From the IMG/VR virus record IMGVR_UViG_3300010155_000132, positions 1 through 21,139 of that record: 21,139 nt of DNA, one strand, 5' to 3'. Every line of letters begins with the position of its first letter. Position 1 is the stretch's first letter. Source of the DNA: a virus. Positions 3,811 to 19,299 of the stretch are shown here, piece by piece. The notes beneath the pieces were generated by a model, which saw only the letters and a program-made list of their open reading frames with translations, was not told the origin of the DNA and ran no database searches. Both the position numbers and the translations under genes were made by a program.

Positions 3811-4526
3811 ATCTTAATTCCTTTCTTGCGAGCCAACTTGAATGCTGCGTTGAGGCTCTGTGACTGCGATAGAACGTGTTTACGAGTCTTTTCGACCCCA
3901 GCTAGCTCCTTGGCAATCTTTTTCAAATCTGAGGCATTCTGACGTGTCTGTTTATCAACCCCTTTACGCTGTCGCTCTATGTCCGCGAACTGGAAAGCTC
4001 GGTGTGCTTGGAAGTGTATCTTCTTGCCATCGAGACGATCTGAAGCCTCTTTCAGCTCCTTCTGCTCTCTCTTGAGCACCTTCTGATTGCTAGATAGCGT
4101 CTTGCGATCCTCTTTCAAGTTAAGCTCTCTGTTATCCAGCCTTACGAGCTTGTTCTGATACTTCTCTGTCGTAGCATCTGCCTTCTTAGCTCGCTTAGAT
4201 AGATCCTTACTCTGAACCTTTAGGTCTGCTCTGATCTCGTTGTTCTTCACAATAAGAGCATCAACAGGCTCAAGGGCCTTTCTCTTACGTTCTTCTAAGG
4301 TAATCAGCTCATTCTCTATAAGAGCAATCTCACGTGCTAACTCCTCTCGACGGGCGCGAGCATTAGACTCCATTGACCCCAATACCCGCGCCTGTTCGTC
4401 TTTTAGCTTGTTGACTGCTTTAGTGATCTTTGCCAAAGCCTTATCAGCACGGTCTAGGTCTTGTTTTCTCTTACTCTGTTGAGTCTGGACCTTCTTGAGC
4501 GCCTCAGTTTTTGGCATCAGACGCAT
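3807..4526 (-). CDS. Long coiled-coil protein, unknown role in the virion block
   Basis: 239 residues, highly charged (Lys, Arg, Glu, Asp) and nearly free of aromatic residues until about residue 175. Heptad-like patterns run almost end to end, e.g. RREELAREIALIENELITLE and KVLKREQKELKEASDRLDG, so a long coiled-coil rod is likely. The C-terminus is strongly basic (ARKKGIKI). It is too short for a usual tape-measure protein. A scaffold, spacer or internal head role would fit; these are guesses. It starts one base after the preceding stop (TAG-T-ATG). A second ATG at codon 4 is possible. Confidence 0.75.
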   Translation of the reverse strand: MRLMPKTEALKKVQTQQSKRKQDLDRADKALAKITKAVNKLKDEQARVLGSMESNARARREELAREIALIENELITLEERKRKALEPVDALIVKNNEIRADLKVQSKDLSKRAKKADATTEKYQNKLVRLDNRELNLKEDRKTLSSNQKVLKREQKELKEASDRLDGKKIHFQAHRAFQFADIERQRKGVDKQTRQNASDLKKIAKELAGVEKTRKHVLSQSQSLNAAFKLARKKGIKI

Positions 4527-6468: not shown

Positions 6469-7485
6469 CTAAACAGCAGCTACACCTGTGAGCTTTCCGT
6501 GTCGTTTAGGGTTATCAGAGAGCAGTTCACCACCGAGGTAAACGTGACCGATAAGAGCTGCCTGGTTAACCGGCTTGATCCAACCAGACCAACTAAATCC
6601 GAGTCCAACAACTGAAGAGTAGTCGTTACCTTCGATATCCTGTGACTTGAATTGGATAGCTTCTGTGTTTGCTACAGGTAGTGCCTTCCAGTGCATGAAG
6701 TCTTCGTTCACGAAGTAGAAGATTTGTGCAGTTGCATTCTCGTCTGGGAGACATGGGACTCCAATGTAGTGAAGTGCTGTGAATCCAGTTCCACCTACCA
6801 TTCCCTGCTTCATCATTGGGACGTTCTTCATGATGCGTTCCTGTGGCTGAAGGAGCTGCTCGTAAAGAGCGAGTACACCTTCTGTCGTAGGACAAAGTGT
6901 TGGTCGTTGTGAACCAGATGTAATGGCGTTGTAGAGCGTTCGCATTCCTGCCAATGTCAGGGTTGCTAGACCTGTAACTGTTGAGTCAAGCGTACCGAAT
7001 GTTGCACGAGCGAGACTACCGTAAGTAGCTGCGTTCGTACCGTCATCAACGATAGCTTCGAGACCCAGGAAGTCCTTGCCACCGTTTCCTGTTCCATCTG
7101 CATAGAACAATGTTCCGATGTCGTCTGCCATGTCCTGTGCGGCTGACTGAACTTCGATAGCTGCGAGATCGAGAACCTTCGCTTCCGTCTGGTTAGCGCT
7201 AAGCTCGTCGAGTGGGAGAGTAACTGGGATGCTGAAGAACTTAGGATCGAACGAAAGAAGCTGTCGGTTGTTCGTAGCAGTAGTAGACAATGCATCGAAT
7301 CCAGCGAAAGAACTTCCGTTCGTGTTCTTAGATACCTTGATCGGGAACTTCATTGTTGAACCGCTCCAGCGTTCTGCCGCCCCGATCCAACGAGTGAACA
7401 ACGTGTTCGAGTTCAAGATCGTATCTACCAGCTTCGGCATGTACTCATCCTGTGTCGTTGTAATGACTCTATTTCCGAGTGCCAT
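6469..7485 (-). CDS. Major capsid protein, HK97-fold type
   Basis: 338 residues. Position right after the scaffold-like gene and behind portal and terminase is the classic place for the capsid protein. The sequence supports it: N-terminal LVDTILNSNTLFTRWIG, the FPIKVSKNTNGSSFAGFDAL segment, SIPVTLPLDEL, a mid-domain DDIGTLFYADGTGNGGKDFLG, and a C-terminal strand set with HYIGVPCLPDENATAQIFYF, as in the P-domain and A-domain of phage capsid proteins. No protease gene is seen, and the length fits a protein that is not processed. No Shine-Dalgarno sequence; the start is preceded by TAATACT. Confidence 0.88.
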   Translation of the reverse strand: MALGNRVITTTQDEYMPKLVDTILNSNTLFTRWIGAAERWSGSTMKFPIKVSKNTNGSSFAGFDALSTTATNNRQLLSFDPKFFSIPVTLPLDELSANQTEAKVLDLAAIEVQSAAQDMADDIGTLFYADGTGNGGKDFLGLEAIVDDGTNAATYGSLARATFGTLDSTVTGLATLTLAGMRTLYNAITSGSQRPTLCPTTEGVLALYEQLLQPQERIMKNVPMMKQGMVGGTGFTALHYIGVPCLPDENATAQIFYFVNEDFMHWKALPVANTEAIQFKSQDIEGNDYSSVVGLGFSWSGWIKPVNQAALIGHVYLGGELLSDNPKRHGKLTGVAAV

Positions 7486-8774: not shown

Positions 8775-10568
8775 CTATTGGATTTGTTGGTTAAGAGCTT
8801 CTTGTATAGGAGGTAGTGGCGGCAATGCTCCCTCTACTGGAACTTCCTGTGGGGCCTGTGCTTCTGCCTGCTGCGCTTCCTGCGGGAATAGGGACGCTGG
8901 GTTGGATTGCCACTGGAATAGCCGCTTAGCCGCGTCGTTAGGATCTGCGTAGCCAATCTTGTCAAACAGTGTCACTGGGTCGATAGCTCCTGCTGCCCAT
9001 AGATCAATAGCCTCGTTACGTTTCGTAAGGTCATCCTTTGGCACAAGAGATCCTGGCTTAACGCTGACCAATAGTTTCTTATTAAAGTCGTCACGGCGTA
9101 GGGAGGTGAACTCCATAGCGCTGTCCTTGCCTACAACAGCCGCATGGTGCTCCTCGTTGTAGTAGACGAACATCATCTGCACCCACCAGTTGTAGATACC
9201 GTCTGCAAACTCTTCAACATACTCACCGATACCGCTTCCAATACGGTCTGCATCTTGGCCTTGAATCTGGATCTTTCCACGTACTGTGCGCTCTCCACGT
9301 ACTCCTTGGGGGCTAGAGCCACTAACACCGAAGATATTCCGTAGCTGTGTTCGGTCATCAATAAGGGCATCAAAGACGAAGCTAGGTAGGGGTGGGACAT
9401 TATTGCGACCAACTGACCGCTCACCACCTGAGACACGAATAGGCAAACCAACGGCCAAAGCTCGTGCTGCCTGTGCTAACTGCTCCTTCGTAACCACATC
9501 AGCGTCAGCAATGATGCTGGTATTCATCTGACTGGCATTGGCGTCAATCTGGCGTCGTCGGAGGTTAATGGAGTCTTGGATGGAGATAACCTGCTCAACA
9601 AGGGAAGTCTGGTCGTAAGGATGCTTGCCTACGTTGAACACTGAAAGGAATACAAATGGCATCTTTCTCTCACTAAAGTGGTTGCGGCCACGTTCTTCTA
9701 CCTCTTCAGTAGTCTCTACACCGAACTCATCTGTAGTTACCTCTTCTCGTGTCGAGTTGTAGTTCCAGTGAGGGTTTCGCTTAATGTCTAGGATGATGTC
9801 GTTCACCTTCCAGAAGAGAACGTCAGTAGTCCACCACTCGGTGTATCGAAGCTCAGTCATCATCTTGTCCTTTACCAGTTTCTTGATCTCTTCTTTCTTC
9901 TTAGGGAAGCGCTTAACAAGCGTCTCAGCCGTGTCTTTACGCACATGACCGATGTACTGACCTGTGTATTCAGCTGACTCAACACTAGCCTCTGGGTCTA
10001 GGATGAGCTGTTGAGGACGGATAACGTCTGTCTTGATCTCATCTGAAGGGAAATCCCAGCTAATCTTAGCCACTCCCACGTAGTACAAGAGCCAGAAACG
10101 CACTGCACGCTTGAGGTCCAGCTTCAATCGGGAGGTATCAGCGATGTATGTGAGCTGCTTTCGCACTGTATCTGCTAGATCTTCGCCTTCTACTGTGTTG
10201 TCTGCTACCACTAATGGCTCTGGGTTAGCACTTGTAGCCAGTGGAATAAAAGTCTCTACAGCCTCAAAGAGAACATTGTCTCTGTTCTCGTGGTGACCAT
10301 GACCGGACCGACCACCTTGATAGTCGCTCTGGATGCCTAGCCAGTAATGTTCGTTCTCTCGTCGAAGGTCAGGTAGGGAATCAATCTTCTTATCCCAGTT
10401 CTTCTTCCATTGGTTGGCCAACTTAATCAACTCATCTTCGTCTAAATCTACTTCAAGCTCTGGAGTGAGTGACGATGCTACTCCTTCTTGTTCTTCCTCA
10501 CCTGTATCGTTCCCGACCTTGTTGATTCGGGCGCGTAGGGAGTAATAGCCGTTTGAAAGTATGCTCAT
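8775..10568 (-). CDS. Portal protein
   Basis: 597 residues. It forms the twelve-fold ring at the packaging vertex through which DNA enters. Supporting sequence: an N-terminal acidic segment, NQWKKNWDKKIDSLPDLRRE, VRFWLLYYVGVAKISWDFPS, PQQLILDPEASVESAEYTGQ, a MPFVFLSVFNVGKHPYDQTS segment and SIQDSINLRRRQIDANASQM, the last being the long helix common in podovirus-like portals. The C-terminus is Pro/Gln-rich. It lies behind the terminase large subunit and begins a transcription unit of its own (promoter at 10634-10662). The start ATG abuts the U-run of an intrinsic terminator and has no Shine-Dalgarno sequence. Confidence 0.9.
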   Translation of the reverse strand: MSILSNGYYSLRARINKVGNDTGEEEQEGVASSLTPELEVDLDEDELIKLANQWKKNWDKKIDSLPDLRRENEHYWLGIQSDYQGGRSGHGHHENRDNVLFEAVETFIPLATSANPEPLVVADNTVEGEDLADTVRKQLTYIADTSRLKLDLKRAVRFWLLYYVGVAKISWDFPSDEIKTDVIRPQQLILDPEASVESAEYTGQYIGHVRKDTAETLVKRFPKKKEEIKKLVKDKMMTELRYTEWWTTDVLFWKVNDIILDIKRNPHWNYNSTREEVTTDEFGVETTEEVEERGRNHFSERKMPFVFLSVFNVGKHPYDQTSLVEQVISIQDSINLRRRQIDANASQMNTSIIADADVVTKEQLAQAARALAVGLPIRVSGGERSVGRNNVPPLPSFVFDALIDDRTQLRNIFGVSGSSPQGVRGERTVRGKIQIQGQDADRIGSGIGEYVEEFADGIYNWWVQMMFVYYNEEHHAAVVGKDSAMEFTSLRRDDFNKKLLVSVKPGSLVPKDDLTKRNEAIDLWAAGAIDPVTLFDKIGYADPNDAAKRLFQWQSNPASLFPQEAQQAEAQAPQEVPVEGALPPLPPIQEALNQQIQ

Positions 10569-10570
10569 AA

Positions 10571-10602
10571 AATAAAAAGGGGAGTCACCAAAATGGCAAC
10601 CC
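10571..10602 (-). terminator. Intrinsic terminator directly before the portal start codon
   Basis: In the minus-strand transcript GGGUUGCC pairs with GGUGAC-U-CC (one bulged U, two wobble pairs) around the loop AUUUU, followed by CCUUUUUAUUUU and then the AUG at 10568. A terminator between a promoter and its first gene implies regulated read-through. Confidence 0.65.
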
Positions 10603-10622
10603 GCCTTCGAATGGAAAGGGTT
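10598..10622 (-). promoter_or_regulatory. Candidate antiterminator stem-loop (leader A)
   Basis: AACCC pairs with GGGUU around the 15-nt loop UUUCCAUUCGAAGGC. The 3' arm GGGUU is the first part of the terminator stem at 10571-10602, so the two structures exclude each other. The same layout, with a different stem sequence and nearly the same loop, occurs at 19040-19065. Confidence 0.6.
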
Positions 10623-10633
10623 TTATTAACTAA

Positions 10634-10662
10634 ATTGTAGCACACCTATTTGCGCCTGTACA
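10634..10662 (-). promoter_or_regulatory. Promoter for the portal/capsid operon
   Basis: On the minus strand: TGTACA (10657-10662), 17 bases, TACAAT (10634-10639), with a TG one base before the -10 (extended -10). The expected start near 10627 places the leader-A hairpin at the very 5' end of the transcript. A similar TGCTACAAT occurs at 13282-13290. Confidence 0.55.
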
Positions 10663-10831
10663 CCCACTTATCAGTCTTTATGCCATCTATCATGCCCTCA
10701 TGGTTAACGTGAAGCGTGATAGATCCGCTCTTGCCTGCGGCGTGCATAATCGTAACCTCAGACACAATCGTGTTAAACACGCTGTAATACTGCTGAAACA
10801 TCTTGAATCGTTCGATATCACGGGGGGACAT
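10646..10831 (-). CDS. Small hypothetical protein after the terminase gene
   Basis: 61 residues from the chosen ATG at 10831, beginning MSPRDIERFKMFQQYYSVFN and ending KTDKWVYRRK. This start lies eight bases after the terminase stop and has AGGA five bases upstream. Longer versions starting at 10858 or 10924 overlap the terminase gene by 20 or 86 bases and have no ribosome site. It has a helical first half and a small beta second half; no family is recognised. Its end lies just before the portal promoter, whose -35 falls inside the gene. Confidence 0.6.
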   Translation of the reverse strand: MSPRDIERFKMFQQYYSVFNTIVSEVTIMHAAGKSGSITLHVNHEGMIDGIKTDKWVYRRK

Positions 10832-10838
10832 CTCGATC

Positions 10839-12506
10839 CTAACCATTTCTCCAATCATGTTTGTTTTTATCAGGTAATAAGATTCCTTTTGTATATTCAC
10901 GTGGGAGACTGCCGTCATAGTCAACCTCTACTCCCTTCTGGAACGAATCAATCGGAACTGTCCCTGCAACCTGTAATCCACCATCTGCAAACTTGTTCAT
11001 ACCCGTGCGCCAATACGATGTAGCGTGAGCGTAGTGATCTGGGCCATTATGCTCCCATCTGCGCTCCATGATCCCTAGTCGCTTGTTCTCTATAGCCATC
11101 CGGTAAAGGTTCTTGTAGTGCTGTGAAAACTCGAACCACTCATCGTATGTTCCATTAAGAGCTATACGCTTGGTGGTGAACTCATCAATCACGAACTGGA
11201 TCATCCTGTTACGGTCAACATGGACAATGCCGTGGTCCTTCTTCTCACCCCATCGGATAAGCTCTCGATGCTTACTGTCTACCGAATAATAGCATAGATA
11301 GATGCGTCCCTGATACTTCTCTTGAAGCTCTCTGATCTTGATGAGATCCCCGTGTGCATCAGCTACGATAATCATCTTAGGGTAGCGTCGTAAAAGAGAT
11401 TCTATCTCATCATAGCTCTCTGCGCTGTTGTGGTAGAAGATGCCATCCTTGTTACCAACGACGTACCAGAGCGTAAGCCCTGTATCTAGTCCCATGACTA
11501 TCCGGCCCTCCTGTGTGTTCACCTCACTAGTCACATTCTGCATGATTGTCTCTTCTGAGACAGAGTTACCACTACCATGATGCTCTAGCCCTAGTACGAA
11601 GTTGTCAAATTGATCTCGTGGCTTGGTCTCATACTTCTCGATGATCTCTGCCGCTGACACCCAGGGAGCCATGAGCAGACTGATCCAATAACCAGAGAAC
11701 TCCTTGTCCTTGTACTTAGCCACCCACCTTCCTAAGCGCCTCTCTTTACGTGTAAGCGCTTTATGGCAAGACTTGCACTGATAGACCTTTCTTTCAAAAC
11801 AAATGGACTCAGGGAAGTCTAGGTACTGCTCTTCCTTGCATCCACCACACTTTATAAACCAATGCTTCTGGTCTGATCTCTCCCAGTATCTATCCACTCC
11901 ATGCCCTGGCACTGATGGGTTGGAGAAATACGACTCCCATTGATACTTGCTGTGCTGTAGACGAGTGGAGTACTGATCCACGATGTTCATGTCTGAGCGG
12001 TCCAGCTCGTCGTAGATGTTCCAGTCTGACGAAATGGATAGAGCCGCACGAGTCGTCATCGTTCCACGGAAGTAGACTACTGAGTTGCCTACACGCTTCT
12101 GTTCAACAGAGTCTCTATCAATGTATTCCTGTAGTACAGGGTTGTTGTCAATGATTCGGTTGATCTTAGCGCCCACTACGTCCTTCACGTCATTACCCGT
12201 TGGGAGAGTGTAGATGACATCCATCTTCTTCTTCTGAGCTATATAGAATAGCTTGAAGATCATCATGGTGGTGAAGGTGATCTGGGCTGCCTTCTTGCAT
12301 ACCATCTTCGGAGAGAAGTCCGAGTAGATGTCATACATGAAGAGGTGGTCGTCAAAGTCAAGAGGAACACCGGTCTCTGTCTTCATCCCGTGCTCTTTGA
12401 TCCAGTGGTGAATTGAGAAGTCACTGAGGTTCATCTGTCGTCTAACCGGAATGGCTCCCGGCTGTGTTACAAGCGGGTACGTGGCGACCTTTGGGAGCAC
12501 AGCCAT
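10839..12506 (-). CDS. terL: Terminase large subunit (gpA-like)
   Basis: 555 residues. The ATPase/nuclease motor that packages DNA into the procapsid. An adenine-binding/Walker A-like segment is CKKAAQITFTT at 70-80 (a deviant form as in lambda gpA relatives), Walker B-like WNIYDELD at 162-169, a zinc knuckle CxxC...CxxC at Cys220/223/244/247, and an RNase H-like nuclease with VMGLDTG (Asp341), IIVADAHGD (Asp383) and PDHYAHA (Asp490). These acidic residues are the expected metal ligands. The start at 12506 lacks a ribosome site; an ATG at codon 25 (12434, MNLSDFSIHHW) is a fair alternative and would free a small Cys-rich frame. It follows the small subunit by 35 bases. Confidence 0.93.
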   Translation of the reverse strand: MAVLPKVATYPLVTQPGAIPVRRQMNLSDFSIHHWIKEHGMKTETGVPLDFDDHLFMYDIYSDFSPKMVCKKAAQITFTTMMIFKLFYIAQKKKMDVIYTLPTGNDVKDVVGAKINRIIDNNPVLQEYIDRDSVEQKRVGNSVVYFRGTMTTRAALSISSDWNIYDELDRSDMNIVDQYSTRLQHSKYQWESYFSNPSVPGHGVDRYWERSDQKHWFIKCGGCKEEQYLDFPESICFERKVYQCKSCHKALTRKERRLGRWVAKYKDKEFSGYWISLLMAPWVSAAEIIEKYETKPRDQFDNFVLGLEHHGSGNSVSEETIMQNVTSEVNTQEGRIVMGLDTGLTLWYVVGNKDGIFYHNSAESYDEIESLLRRYPKMIIVADAHGDLIKIRELQEKYQGRIYLCYYSVDSKHRELIRWGEKKDHGIVHVDRNRMIQFVIDEFTTKRIALNGTYDEWFEFSQHYKNLYRMAIENKRLGIMERRWEHNGPDHYAHATSYWRTGMNKFADGGLQVAGTVPIDSFQKGVEVDYDGSLPREYTKGILLPDKNKHDWRNG

Positions 12507-13096: not shown

Positions 13097-13270
13097 ATGA
13101 AATACCCCTACTATAAGATTCAACTTTTTAACGATATTAGCCTTGCATGGAAGGATATACAGCGTTCTTATAATGCGCCCCCAAACGAACGTATTGCACG
13201 TTATGAGTTAGACGGTAAAAGGGCTAGGATCATGCAGGTGAATGAACGTGACCGGCATCCGTTGGTCTAA
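13097..13270 (+). CDS. Small protein on the opposite strand, unknown
   Basis: 57 residues from ATG 13097 to the stop at 13268-13270, beginning MKYPYYKIQLFNDISLAWKD and ending VNERDRHPLV. It is the only convincing plus-strand gene. Composition is ordinary for a protein (mixed charged and aromatic residues), and no minus-strand gene covers most of it. A longer open frame reaches back to 13010 but that part is antisense to the tRNA-like gene and less protein-like. No Shine-Dalgarno sequence is visible. Its last 41 bases overlap the 3' end of the Mom-like gene in the opposite direction. It would be antisense to the leader of the terminase operon. Confidence 0.55.
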   Translation: MKYPYYKIQLFNDISLAWKDIQRSYNAPPNERIARYELDGKRARIMQVNERDRHPLV

Positions 13271-13979
13271 CCCCTTTATACATTGTAGCACCTCTAGCCC
13301 CTATCTCGGAGAACGGTATTTTTGGAACGGCCAGTCTGTATGACCGGTCTATTGTTTTTATGTACCGCAGCTGGAAGCCAACGAGGATTTTTCCATCAAC
13401 CTTTTCAACATACTGCTTGAAGTTATACCTTCCACCGGTCAGCTTGTAATAAGATTGCCCCCCAAGCTCCTTTCGTGGAGATGTTGGATTAGATTCAAGC
13501 GTCATCTTGTGCATTACATCGCCAGACGGCAGTAAGCAGGTATTCTGGTTTGTCTTAATGCCGGTCAAAGAAAATCCACTAGCCCTATAAATAGTCCCAT
13601 CGCCGCATTGCGTACCGTCCGCAAACGACAATATCCATCGTATATGCGGGGCGTTCTTCTTCAATAATCGTATTGCTATTGCTATGCACCGACTTTCGCT
13701 ATTCTTTGGAAGGCTGTCATCAAACGCCATGCGGTTCAATTCGAGCATCTCGTTCCATTTACACGGGTTTCCGTCCTGATCCACCGCCAACCCAAGTACC
13801 TTGCGTTTATCCAATGGACTGCCAAAACTCATCACACCATGCAGTCGGCCCTCTAAAAACGCCCCGAAATGTAGCGAGCTATGTCGTACCACCTTGCCAG
13901 AATAGTGATGTTTCTTTACAAACAGGTTCGCCACCTTAGAGGGGATGACCTTAACTTTTATGTGTTTTGCGAGGCCCAT
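13230..13979 (-). CDS. mom: Mom-like DNA adenine modification protein
   Basis: 249 residues, close to phage Mu Mom in size. Mom proteins have a GNAT-like fold and convert adenine in phage DNA to a carbamoylmethyl-type adenine, which blocks many restriction enzymes. Sequence signs: HHYSG at 24-28, LHFGAFLEGRLHGVMSFG, LNRMAF at 81-86, NSESR at 93-97 and the hallmark ADGTQCGDGTIYRASGF at 120-136, followed by a C-terminal HKM and YKLTGGRY region. It overlaps the ParB-like gene by 22 bases and has no ribosome site, so translation likely depends on the upstream gene; in Mu the mom gene is also under translational control (Com protein). Assignment from family pattern memory, fairly sure. Confidence 0.82.
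   Translation of the reverse strand: MGLAKHIKVKVIPSKVANLFVKKHHYSGKVVRHSSLHFGAFLEGRLHGVMSFGSPLDKRKVLGLAVDQDGNPCKWNEMLELNRMAFDDSLPKNSESRCIAIAIRLLKKNAPHIRWILSFADGTQCGDGTIYRASGFSLTGIKTNQNTCLLPSGDVMHKMTLESNPTSPRKELGGQSYYKLTGGRYNFKQYVEKVDGKILVGFQLRYIKTIDRSYRLAVPKIPFSEIGARGATMYKGVRPTDAGHVHSPA
13282..13290 (-). promoter_or_regulatory. Extended -10 promoter candidate ahead of tRNA-like gene and terminase
   Basis: TGCTACAAT on the minus strand, identical to the extended -10 of the portal promoter, but with no good -35. It would start a transcript near 13275 that carries the tRNA-like sequence and then the terminase genes. Weak on its own. Confidence 0.3.
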
Positions 13980-14874: not shown

Positions 14875-15051
14875 TTATTTTCTTTTAAGTTTGATGTCTT
14901 CAGGCTCTCCGAAGCGCTTGAGGAACTTCGGGTTCTTCTTACCGTTGGTGTCTAATGGTTGTATTATATCATCTTTGAACCATCTCTGCTGGCGTTCTAT
15001 GTCCCGTCTCTTGGAGCGAGACATCTCGAACTTTGATCTTACCCTTGGCAT
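14875..15051 (-). CDS. Small basic protein after GroES
   Basis: 58 residues, beginning MPRVRSKFEMSRSKRRDIER and ending GEPEDIKLKRK. About a third of residues are Lys or Arg, so nucleic-acid or acidic-protein binding is possible. The first 13 bases overlap the end of the GroES gene in another frame, a coupled arrangement. A TGATATAAT extended -10-like sequence lies inside the gene at 14963-14971 and might start transcripts for the genes that follow. Confidence 0.65.
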   Translation of the reverse strand: MPRVRSKFEMSRSKRRDIERQQRWFKDDIIQPLDTNGKKNPKFLKRFGEPEDIKLKRK

Positions 15052-15305
15052 ACAGCCATCACATCCTGCTCTTCGACCAGGTAAACCTCTTCACCCTCAT
15101 GCTTGAATGCGTCGGGGGCGTATTTCTTATAAAGCACTGTGTCTCCTACCTTGACTTCCTTGGCCTCATAGCCCTTACCGATGCTTAGGACTGTGCCTGT
15201 GTCTTTCTCTTCCTTAGCCTCTGTGGCCACCATGATCTCGCCTTCCTTGACCTCTGGCTCTAGTGGTTGGATGAGGAAGTAAACCCCGATTGCTTTTAGT
15301 TTCAT
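15039..15305 (-). CDS. groES: GroES-like co-chaperonin
   Basis: 88 residues, slightly shorter than the usual 95-100. The family signature is clear in the C-terminal half: TGTVLSIGKG, VKVGDTVLYKKYAPDAF, then GEEVYLVEEQDVMAV, matching the GroES pattern of GKG, VGD-VL-KY and EEDILAV. The mobile loop that contacts GroEL would be GEIMVATEAKEEKDTG at about residues 22-37, with the hydrophobic triplet IMV in place of the usual IVL. The ATG overlaps the stop of the 59-residue gene (ATGA). It probably caps the phage GroEL encoded just upstream. Confidence 0.88.
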   Translation of the reverse strand: MKLKAIGVYFLIQPLEPEVKEGEIMVATEAKEEKDTGTVLSIGKGYEAKEVKVGDTVLYKKYAPDAFKHEGEEVYLVEEQDVMAVCQG

Positions 15306-15482: not shown

Positions 15483-17024
15483 CTACTCGTTCGTAATCAC
15501 TGCCTCGGTCGTAAGCACAAGGTTAGCCGCAGCCGTTGCATTGATGAGAGCATTGATACTTACCTTCACTGGATCAATGATACCTGCGTCCTGTAGGTTC
15601 TCTACGGCCCCTGTGAGCGCGTTAAACCCGTCACCTGTCCCTAGGCACGTCTTTACGATCTTATCGGCTCCACGGCCTTTCTTCCCATTGAACCCTGCGT
15701 TGGCAATAATCTGTCTGATTGGAGACTCAAGAGCCTTAACTACCACATCTGCACCATCTGTTTCGATGTTGATAAATCCAATAGTGTTCAAGTAAGCAAT
15801 GCCACCACCCACAACGTAGCCCAGCTCCATAGCTGCCTTGGTTGCGTTTACGGCGTCTTCGATGCGATCCTTCAACTCTCCGATCTCAGCATCTACCTTC
15901 CCACCGACCTTAATGACCGCCATCTTTCCAGATAGACGTGCTGCTAAGTCTCGTAAGTCTTCTCGCTTGTTGCCTGTGAACTCCTTAGAGCGTGCGACTA
16001 GGTAGTCAGCGCGTTCCTTGATAGCTGCCTGACGTTCCTTGGTCATCGCACATTCCATTGTCGTATCTTCTGCGGTGGACCGTACAGATCGGAGTGTTCC
16101 GAGGTGCTCTGACTTGAAGTCCTCTAAGCTGAGGCCACCATCACCACCAATCACCGTTGCTCCTGTGAATACAGCTAGGTTATCCATCCAATCTTCCTTG
16201 TTAAGAGAAGGGATCTTGACTGCGTTGATCTTTAGGCCATTCTGTACTCGTGCCACTGCCAATGTCTTAACAATAGTACCGTCGAAGTCGTCAGCTACGA
16301 TAAAGATAGACTTACCGGCGGCATGTAGGGGGTTGATGATGTTTACCAACCGTTGTGCGTCTGCGAGGCGGTCTTCATACAAGAGGACTACACAGTCATC
16401 GTACTTAGACTCACCCTTAGACGGGTCGGTCATGAAATGGGGGACAACAAAACCAGCATCTAGCCGAATACCGTTTACAATCTCTGTAAATGTATCAATA
16501 GTGTTTGAGTTTTCAATAGAAACTAGAGCGTCTTTGCCTACCTTGTGGATGGCATCAGCTACGATCTGACCAATCTCAGGGTCATTTGCTGAAACTGAGG
16601 CAATCTTCTCAATATCTCCTTCGTCTACAGCTCGTGCAGCCTTTAGGAGCACAGCCTGTACGACCTCACTGGCCTGTAGTATCTCTCCACGGAGGATCTG
16701 TGCGTCTTTGCCTTTAGAAATCTTCTCATTAGCACCATGTACTAGGGCCTGTGCAAGAACACATGCAGCCGTCGTACCGTCTCCAGCTGAATAGTTCGTC
16801 TTGTTAGCGGCCTGTTGGATCAACTTACACCCCTGCTGTTCAGTAGGGTCTTCTAACTGAATATCTCGGGCTACTGATACACCGTCCTTGGTAACACGGC
16901 CATCGCTGAGGATGACGTTACGGCCTCTTGCGCCCATCGTTACCTTGACCGCGTCGACTAGCTTGTCTACGCCAGCCTGTACTCCACTGCGTGCCTCCTC
17001 TGAAAAAACTACTCGTTTTGCCAT
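15483..17024 (-). CDS. groEL: GroEL-like chaperonin
   Basis: 513 residues versus about 548 for host GroEL. The ATP-dependent folding machine; phage versions are known to fold capsid proteins. ATPase residues are all present: TKDG at 45-48 (Asp47), GDGTT at 81-85 (Asp82), RIEDAVNAT with Asp390, and GGG at 406-408. The apical domain keeps the general layout (AGFVVPHFMTDPSKGES, then KSIFIVADDFDGTIVKTL). The C-terminus stops at TTEAVITNE without the Gly-Gly-Met tail of host GroEL. The start overlaps the upstream gene by 16 bases. It is followed by a small membrane gene and then GroES. That it is a phage gene and not a host insertion is shown by the dense overlaps on both sides. Confidence 0.95.
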   Translation of the reverse strand: MAKRVVFSEEARSGVQAGVDKLVDAVKVTMGARGRNVILSDGRVTKDGVSVARDIQLEDPTEQQGCKLIQQAANKTNYSAGDGTTAACVLAQALVHGANEKISKGKDAQILRGEILQASEVVQAVLLKAARAVDEGDIEKIASVSANDPEIGQIVADAIHKVGKDALVSIENSNTIDTFTEIVNGIRLDAGFVVPHFMTDPSKGESKYDDCVVLLYEDRLADAQRLVNIINPLHAAGKSIFIVADDFDGTIVKTLAVARVQNGLKINAVKIPSLNKEDWMDNLAVFTGATVIGGDGGLSLEDFKSEHLGTLRSVRSTAEDTTMECAMTKERQAAIKERADYLVARSKEFTGNKREDLRDLAARLSGKMAVIKVGGKVDAEIGELKDRIEDAVNATKAAMELGYVVGGGIAYLNTIGFINIETDGADVVVKALESPIRQIIANAGFNGKKGRGADKIVKTCLGTGDGFNALTGAVENLQDAGIIDPVKVSINALINATAAANLVLTTEAVITNE

Positions 17025-17361: not shown

Positions 17362-17390
17362 ATTATATCATCTTGAACACACTCTGACAA
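17362..17390 (-). promoter_or_regulatory. Sigma70-type promoter of the GroEL operon
   Basis: On the minus strand TTGTCA (17385-17390), 17 bases, TATAAT (17362-17367), with an extended TG before the -10. Five of six -35 bases and all -10 bases match the consensus. The start would be near 17355, giving a leader of about 17 bases to the ATG at 17338. The rest of the 156-base gap (17339-17494) holds no convincing gene. Confidence 0.75.
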
Positions 17391-18588: not shown

Positions 18589-19014
18589 CTAGCTGTTGTG
18601 GGTGTAGGCTCTAACGTCTGCGCTTATTGTTCCAGCTGAGTAAGCACTGACATCAATGTTTATAAAGTCAATACCGTCCACATTCACTAATAGGTTTCGT
18701 GCATTAGCTGAATCAGTACCAGCCATAACAAAGCCTGTGGTTCCTGTTGTGTGAAGTCCTGTGTTGTAGTCCCAGAAGCCTTGAGGGGCCATGCGGTTTG
18801 CAGTGGTAGACAGAGTGGCCCATGTAGGCTCCTGTGGGTTGCTGTCAGACTCCGCAATGGCCGTCCATAGGTCTAGGGTCGCATCTCCGCTAGAAGCGGA
18901 TGAGACATAAATAATGACGTTCTGATACGCCCTTACGTTCATAGCTGATCCAAACCCTGTTGCAGCTTGAGCGTTTAGTATGTTTTGGAATCTACTAGCG
19001 TTTCTATTTGGCAT
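18589..19014 (-). CDS. Small appendage-type virion protein
   Basis: 141 residues from ATG 19014 (MPNRNASRFQNILNAQAATG). A longer frame begins at 19032, but that ATG lies inside the terminator stem. The middle has VRAYQNVIIYVSSASSGDAT and the C-terminus FINIDVSAYSAGTISADVRA, a beta-sandwich style common in phage virion proteins. It is the first gene of the unit driven from 19075-19103 and is followed at two bases by the 363-residue gene. No Shine-Dalgarno sequence: the U-run of the terminator ends two bases before the ATG. Confidence 0.75.
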   Translation of the reverse strand: MPNRNASRFQNILNAQAATGFGSAMNVRAYQNVIIYVSSASSGDATLDLWTAIAESDSNPQEPTWATLSTTANRMAPQGFWDYNTGLHTTGTTGFVMAGTDSANARNLLVNVDGIDFINIDVSAYSAGTISADVRAYTHNS

Positions 19015-19016
19015 AT

Positions 19017-19044
19017 AAAAAAGAGCCAGCAATTAAGCTGACTC
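19017..19044 (-). terminator. Intrinsic terminator directly before the appendage operon start codon
   Basis: GAGUCAGC pairs with GCUGGCUC (8 bp, one wobble) around UUAAUU, followed by UUUUUU and the AUG at 19014. It lies between the promoter and the first gene, as in the portal operon. Confidence 0.75.
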
Positions 19045-19065
19045 GCCTTGGAATGGGAAAGAGTC
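19040..19065 (-). promoter_or_regulatory. Candidate antiterminator stem-loop (leader B)
   Basis: GACUC pairs with GAGUC around the 16-nt loop UUUCCCAUUCCAAGGC. The 3' arm GAGUC is also the first part of the terminator stem at 19017-19044. Compared with leader A the stem bases differ while pairing is kept, and the loop is nearly the same, which is what a conserved RNA element would show. Confidence 0.6.
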
Positions 19066-19074
19066 TATGAGTCC

Positions 19075-19103
19075 ATTATATCAAATATTTTAGAAAAACT
19101 CTA
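19075..19103 (-). promoter_or_regulatory. Promoter for the appendage operon
   Basis: TGATATAAT (perfect -10 at 19075-19080 with extended TG) on the minus strand in an A/T-rich stretch; no good -35 is visible. The leader-B hairpin begins about ten bases after the -10, the same distance as in the portal operon. Confidence 0.5.
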
Positions 19104-19131
19104 CACAGTCCTCAGATATCTAGTTGGACTT

Positions 19132-19260
19132 CTAATACAACTCTCCTCCACATTTCCTAAAAGGCTTATCTATGTCTGCTTTTTCTTTGCCAGCACTTCT
19201 TGCCTCAAAGTAATTCTCGTACCCACATAGGTTACATGTAGCATGTACAAACCCTCCCAT
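19132..19260 (-). CDS. 42-residue Cys-containing small protein
   Basis: Begins MGGFVHATCNLCGYENYFEA and ends PFRKCGGELY. It resembles a zinc-ribbon half-site (CxxC at 9 and 12) with a single Cys at 37 in a KCGGEL turn, where the usual second CxxC has lost one Cys; His6 could supply the fourth ligand. The ribosome site GGAGG eight bases before the ATG is the strongest in the window, which argues that this very short gene is real and well translated. It is the last gene before the appendage promoter. A role as regulator is possible, not shown. Confidence 0.7.
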   Translation of the reverse strand: MGGFVHATCNLCGYENYFEARSAGKEKADIDKPFRKCGGELY

Positions 19261-19299
19261 CCTAAGAACCTCCCATTTATTCTCCAAACATTGGTACAG

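Follow-up and report, generated by a model that had tools for sequence, protein, structure and literature searches.

A candidate antiterminator/terminator switch ahead of portal operons in uncultured phages, linked to a small upstream gene

In the BglG-SacY-LicT systems, the ribonucleic antiterminator (RAT) overlaps a rho-independent terminator (PMC9981650). The put RNA of phage HK022, with ~70 nt and two stem-loops, binds RNA polymerase (PMC9378689), while the targets of ANTAR/EutV proteins carry two hexaloops with A1 and G4, the second of which overlaps the terminator (PMC8934654). In lambdoid phages, the late structural genes stand behind a promoter-proximal terminator and Q recognises its site in the promoter DNA (PMC6606751).

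Here we analyse two leaders, A and B, of an IMG/VR contig with its late genes on the minus strand; the window is the whole stretch of 21,139 nt. Its relevant features are:

10839-12506, minus strand: terminase gene, heading the order terminase, small gene, leader A, portal gene
10649-10858, minus strand: small gene of 70 aa counted from its ATG, between terminase and leader A, candidate antiterminator (HMM 2.2e-22)
10634-10662, minus strand: leader A promoter, with -35-like TGTACA, 17-nt spacer and TG-n-TACAAT extended -10 (9/12 matches, TG before the second hexamer)
10644-10634, minus strand: leader A extended -10, TGTGCTACAAT
10598-10622, minus strand: leader A putative antiterminator stem-loop, AACCC-TTTCCATTCGAAGGC-GGGTT
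10579-10602, minus strand: leader A intrinsic terminator, GGGTTGCC...GACTCCCC, dG about -14 kcal/mol
8775-10568, minus strand: portal gene, first after leader A, ATG at 10568 (phrog_156, E 2.8e-12; SU10_portal just under the cutoff)
6469-7485, minus strand: major capsid protein gene, downstream of the portal gene
19075-19085, minus strand: leader B extended -10, TTTGATATAAT
19040-19065, minus strand: leader B putative antiterminator stem-loop, GACTC-TTTCCCATTCCAAGGC-GAGTC
19023-19044, minus strand: leader B intrinsic terminator, GAGTCAGC...GCTGGCTC then TTTTTTAT, the U-run abutting the ATG at 19014
18589-19014, minus strand: first gene after leader B, ATG at 19014, unknown protein of 141 aa
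17495-18586, minus strand: unknown protein of 363 aa, after the 141-aa gene
15483-17024, minus strand: phage-encoded GroEL, behind another promoter
15039-15305, minus strand: phage-encoded GroES
13230-13979, minus strand: Mom-like DNA modification gene (Pfam Mom, E 7e-45)

A first-pass annotation had described in each leader an extended -10 followed by a stem-loop whose 3' arm is reused as the 5' arm of a terminator. All of these elements are present in A and B on the minus strand, at the coordinates and with the -10-to-loop distances (16 and 14) that it gave, and both promoters are of the sigma70 extended -10 type. The stem-loop of leader A is built from P1 (AACCC/GGGTT), an internal loop (UUU/C), P2 (CC/GG) and the loop AUUCGAA; that of leader B has P1 GACTC/GAGTC with the same internal loop and P2. 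The P2 helix lies inside what had been called the loop and is plainly visible only in relatives. In leader A, the P1' arm of the antiterminator is the 5' arm of the terminator, whose U-run stops just short of the portal ATG. On the minus strand, no terminator-like site in the scanned window is stronger than those of A and B, whose terminator segments fold better than shuffled sequences (z -2.8 for A and -4.1 for B). The predicted P1 probability of leader A averages 0.83 in the nascent RNA, dropping to 0.000 in the full leader.

Regarding the genes served, the proposal of two virion operons holds for operon A, which starts with the portal gene, the capsid gene following; a virion role of operon B would be conjectural, as leader B precedes the 141- and 363-aa unknown proteins and then GroEL and GroES. 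In the TM7 phage L020, a promoter, leader and terminator also precede chaperonin genes (L020:14810). Just 5' of leader B, at ~19120-19270 on the minus strand, we observed a zinc-ribbon-like small ORF (CNLCG..CGG) in a position matching that of the small gene of leader A. A longer box, TTCAA(A)GATGATATAAT..A..ACCATT, is common to two further promoter-like sites at 17372 and 14973 (minus), neither of which has an attenuator; they are perhaps another promoter class of the phage. By eye, most minus-strand genes of the window have no Shine-Dalgarno sequence near the start, and many begin right after the preceding stop codon (TAGTATG, TAATATG); no tRNA gene was found. A role of AAGG as Shine-Dalgarno was discarded, given this scarcity and the lack of conservation of AAGG in relatives.

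We retrieved relatives by way of the portal and capsid proteins. Dozens of related phages repeat one arrangement ahead of the portal gene, in differing letters: a promoter, then a short leader, then a terminator that runs up to the ATG. In the common layout, the promoter is followed by P1, an asymmetric internal loop, a P2 helix closed by an A-rich loop, P1' (shared with the terminator) and the portal ATG. In the parsed structure P1 has 3-5 pairs, P2 has 2-4 pairs and the A-rich loop about 4-9 nt, with P1' within the terminator stem, as in these examples:

L033: GCC-uaa-CCG-aacaa-CGG-c-GGC
L025: GUCC-aa-UCUG-aauca-CAGA-a-GGAC
L029: GGCU-aa-UUC-auaacaaac-GAA-c-GGCC
window leader, a member of the common structure: CCC-uuu-CC-auucgaa-GG-c-GGG

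In relatives, the internal loop mostly sets AA or GA against A, or else three bases against C. A two-base 5' side faces A in 13 of 16 leaders and a three-base side faces C in all 18, a regularity that fits what a recognition site would be expected to show. The core common to leaders A and B, UUUCC(C)AUUC(G/C)AAGGC, had been proposed as a shared loop, and it is real; what is conserved among relatives, however, is the structure (P1, asymmetric internal loop and P2) and not the UUUCC..AAGGC sequence. An exact motif search of viral contigs confined the window loop sequence to near-identical contigs, so sequence conservation alone says little. Further exact matches in L008, L011 and L014 are located in coding regions and were set aside as chance.

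The first-pass annotation had staked its reading on covariation and conservation in relatives, and both were found there: its observation that the stems vary while pairing is kept extends to stems that covary, in an element occurring twice in the phage. MAFFT alone mis-aligned the short hairpins, and loop lengths were padded with N. In the resulting hand-padded alignment of 22 leaders, every one of the 8 pairs shows a change on both sides somewhere in the set, with 52 double-change cells versus 19 in shuffles and a covariation score of 0.76 versus 0.09-0.20 for slid partners, bearing in mind that hand-parsed alignments favour pairing and that kinship of the sequences inflates shuffle-based significance. 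Since the parse was chosen by hand, we added shuffle tests with an automatic parser and an independent set of contigs. When dinucleotide shuffling was limited to the 40 nt preceding the terminator, P1/P2 reached p<0.05 in 15 of 29 non-redundant leaders (Fisher combined p 2e-12); for the window leaders individually, p was 0.36 for A and 0.005 for B. A -10 box scoring 6-7 precedes P1 in 19 of 33 leaders, as against 1.8% of random positions. Scored over 1.28 Mb, a composite descriptor joining promoter, hairpin and terminator returned 22 real matches at a score of at least 21 versus 2 on the reversed sequence, and these sites mostly precede portal genes, leader B being the exception. At the level of sequence comparison, the leader pattern is confirmed as more than chance.

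The pattern is not uniform. No good P1 was seen in L024, L061, L126 or L128 despite promoter and terminator, and some portal loci (L037, L043, L059 and L066, for example) have no leader. Covariance models of 26-29 positions proved too small for megabase searches, in which most leaders failed to pass alone. Additional structure, upstream or in the loop, occurs in L015, L028, L029, L036 and L092. A further long stem lies 5' of P1 in L029 (about 2190-2290, GGUAAGUAGUG with CACUGCUUAUC) and in L036 (about 3960-4070), which suggests a larger sensor domain in a subgroup of leaders. By eye, the gap between leader and portal holds a gene at L099:3516-4295 (HNH homing endonuclease-like) and at L006:9757-10001 (short AP2-like ORF). 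At L103:16298, in a Patescibacteria-binned contig, TGGTATAAT is followed by 15 nt, a terminator hairpin, a T-run and then the ATG of a 388-aa gene; no antiterminator can be seen there.

The element is used twice by the phage of the window. In L019, one copy lies near the contig start, before small genes, a GroES-like gene and the terminase, and another before the portal gene (GUCCUCACCG..CGGAGGGA). A second copy was searched for in eight largely complete relatives and found in none, so it is not universal.

Compared with the described systems, these leaders most resemble the RAT elements: a short stem-loop overlaps the foot of the terminator, formation of one structure excludes the other, a protein would hold the antiterminator, and one element can serve two operons. 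P1' falls within the terminator stem in the 26 parsed leaders (all but one nt in L035), and P1 is lost in the full-length fold. The differences are that the operons are phage portal operons rather than sugar operons, that sequence and loop geometry are distinct, and that no BglG-type domain could be detected in the linked small protein. With put RNA the leaders share a position at the 5' end of a phage operon transcript, two copies per phage and an assumed read-through output; they differ in having one stem-loop of about 20-27 nt, with an arm that is part of the terminator, instead of two stem-loops in about 70 nt, and in preceding late, not early, genes. The earlier analogy to attenuators and put is kept in its first half, as the leaders are promoter-proximal and attenuator-like, while we favour a RAT-like switch over a put-like modification of RNA polymerase because P1' sits within the terminator stem. 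The lambdoid late genes offer the same arrangement behind a promoter-proximal terminator, but Q reads promoter DNA, whereas the conserved feature here is an RNA structure (PMC6606751). As in ANTAR/EutV targets, a protein-stabilised antiterminator hairpin would overlap the terminator stem; here, however, there is a single hairpin, its P2 loop varies in length (about 4-9 nt) and loop G occurs in 13/233 (6%). Rfam covariance models gave no gathering-level match at the window leaders or at 17 other loci, in line with the first-pass remark that no described element with such a loop is known to it. A T-box was also discarded, as the UGG-like string in the leaders is the variable P2' and the Rfam result includes T-box, and no conserved leader peptide appeared among the few leaders read by eye. 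The proposed switch follows RAT-like logic, yet the comparisons made here place it in no known family by that family's own definition.

Wherever the main leader type occurs, a gene of 50-78 aa that matches no known family lies directly 5' of the leader, whereas portal loci that have no leader lack this gene. A comparison of gene content placed it between terminase and leader in 16 of 21 genomes, including all with the main leader type, and a profile of the small protein matches 67-237 nt upstream of the portal gene in essentially all AA-type leader contigs having upstream sequence. An automatic two-by-two table counted 20 loci with both gene and leader, 36 with neither and 11 discordant (Fisher p 1.7e-7). 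All five cases of gene without leader do have leaders by eye, with larger loops or inserts. The six cases of leader without gene include GA/A-type phages, which carry another small protein resembling the first only in its beta-hairpin (SADITIKIRDGVIVWAE), and L046, in which a coding sequence resembling the small gene precedes the leader. In L099, small gene and leader stay together ~780 nt from the portal gene, with the inserted gene between; this site was already among the weak matches of the first covariance model. No small gene of this kind stands beside leader B.

The independent set consisted of previously unused contigs, retrieved only through the small protein, plus L099. In these, a leader follows the small gene, with p<0.05 in 9 of 14 (Fisher p 7e-9) and a covariation score of 0.66 versus at most 0.22 for slid partners; the classifiable downstream genes are portals (L124, L129). 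In L143, small gene and leader occur with a different terminase family. AlphaFold predicts two helices and a beta-hairpin for the small protein (pLDDT 87), for which no PDB or viral fold match was found at E<=0.001 and no match to a known RNA-binding family or fold. Neither it nor 17 aligned relatives matched a BglG-type RNA-binding (CAT) or PRD domain in Pfam. Its linkage to the leader makes this protein a strong candidate for the trans-acting factor, although the linkage could also reflect a conserved cassette without functional interaction.

The promoter, the exclusive structures, the covariation, the position ahead of portal genes and the gene linkage lead to the hypothesis that each leader attenuates transcription by means of an antiterminator/terminator switch. 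This switch would be off unless activated by a factor and would gate the portal operon; we put the probability of this reading at about 0.7. Mechanistically, RNA polymerase would begin at the sigma70-type promoter and make the 5' arm of the antiterminator within about 10 nt. The antiterminator (P1, asymmetric internal loop and P2) and the terminator would be mutually exclusive, as P1' doubles as the 5' arm of the latter. In predicted folds of 26 leaders, the mean P1 probability falls from 0.89 in nascent RNA to 0.004 at full length, and the mean dG is -5.0 kcal/mol for the antiterminator and -15.9 for the terminator. The antiterminator may thus form first yet be ~11 kcal/mol weaker, so that the terminator would win by default and halt transcription of the portal operon before the start codon. 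A factor recognising the internal loop and P2 would hold the antiterminator, allowing polymerase to enter the portal operon (and here also operon B); according to the fold predictions with P1' inside the terminator, read-through would follow from anything that holds P1/P2. The likeliest factor would be the phage protein encoded directly upstream (10649-10858). We infer the termination itself, the default-off state and the binding of the small protein from sequence.

The nature of the factor is where a variant of this attenuator has to be weighed. The antiterminator might instead be the target of a host protein, of a small molecule or of RNA polymerase itself, with the small gene a passenger of the terminase operon. 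The small protein shows no recognisable RNA-binding domain, GA/A-type leaders accompany another small protein, so the factor may differ or be host-encoded, and the extra structure of the five leaders listed above is as in sensor RNAs. We nevertheless consider this variant unlikely, given that the small gene is tightly linked to the main leader type across diverse phages, including one terminase family besides the usual, and is missing where portal loci have no leader.

A constitutive-looking promoter with a promoter-proximal terminator ahead of late genes is the Q arrangement (PMC6606751), in which a phage protein would load on RNA polymerase at promoter DNA and override the terminator, leaving the stem-loop secondary; covarying RNA stems with P1' inside the terminator are foreign to Q systems, and no -35 to -10 sequence common to A and B was seen by eye, which makes it improbable here. 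That the 5' RNA itself binds polymerase and renders it terminator-resistant without a protein is very improbable: the element does lie at the extreme 5' end, like putL (PMC9378689), but putRNA (~70 nt, two stem-loops) acts on distant terminators, whereas a single stem-loop here has its arm within the terminator itself. We give as little credence to terminators that merely close the upstream operon, with fortuitous upstream pairing and portal transcription beginning elsewhere; the gene order (terminase, small gene, terminator, portal) would suit them, but a promoter stands 5' of the terminator in many diverged leaders, and P1/P2 exceed shuffles and covary.

Returning to the factor-activated switch, a wider hypothesis can be drawn, which we hold tentatively and at somewhat less than even odds. 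The 50-78 aa phage protein may represent a new class of RNA-binding antiterminator acting on a miniature RAT-like hairpin. Protein and hairpin would form a cassette gating (late) transcription of the portal operon in a large group of uncultured phages whose hosts are probably Patescibacteria; the cassette would have a second specificity in the GA/A-type leaders and the small protein that accompanies them. Patescibacteria are the likely host. The portal and capsid have relatives in the TM7 phage MG269973, at about 25 and 30% identity, as well as in a contig assigned by binning to Patescibacteria; no prophage-like relative was found in 379 other genomes of the phylum of that Patescibacteria MAG.

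In the open-access literature searched, we found neither this RNA family, nor its placement before phage portal genes, nor the linked protein; the logic of the switch is already known. Late-gene timing in such uncultured phages, probably infecting episymbiotic Patescibacteria, appears undescribed. In metagenomic phage contigs, the element flags where late operons start. An RNA switch this compact, with covarying stems, most often located ahead of the portal gene and linked to a candidate activator, is testable with two short pieces of DNA. If the proposal is true, the phages would use a protein-RNA antitermination pair smaller than the known ones.
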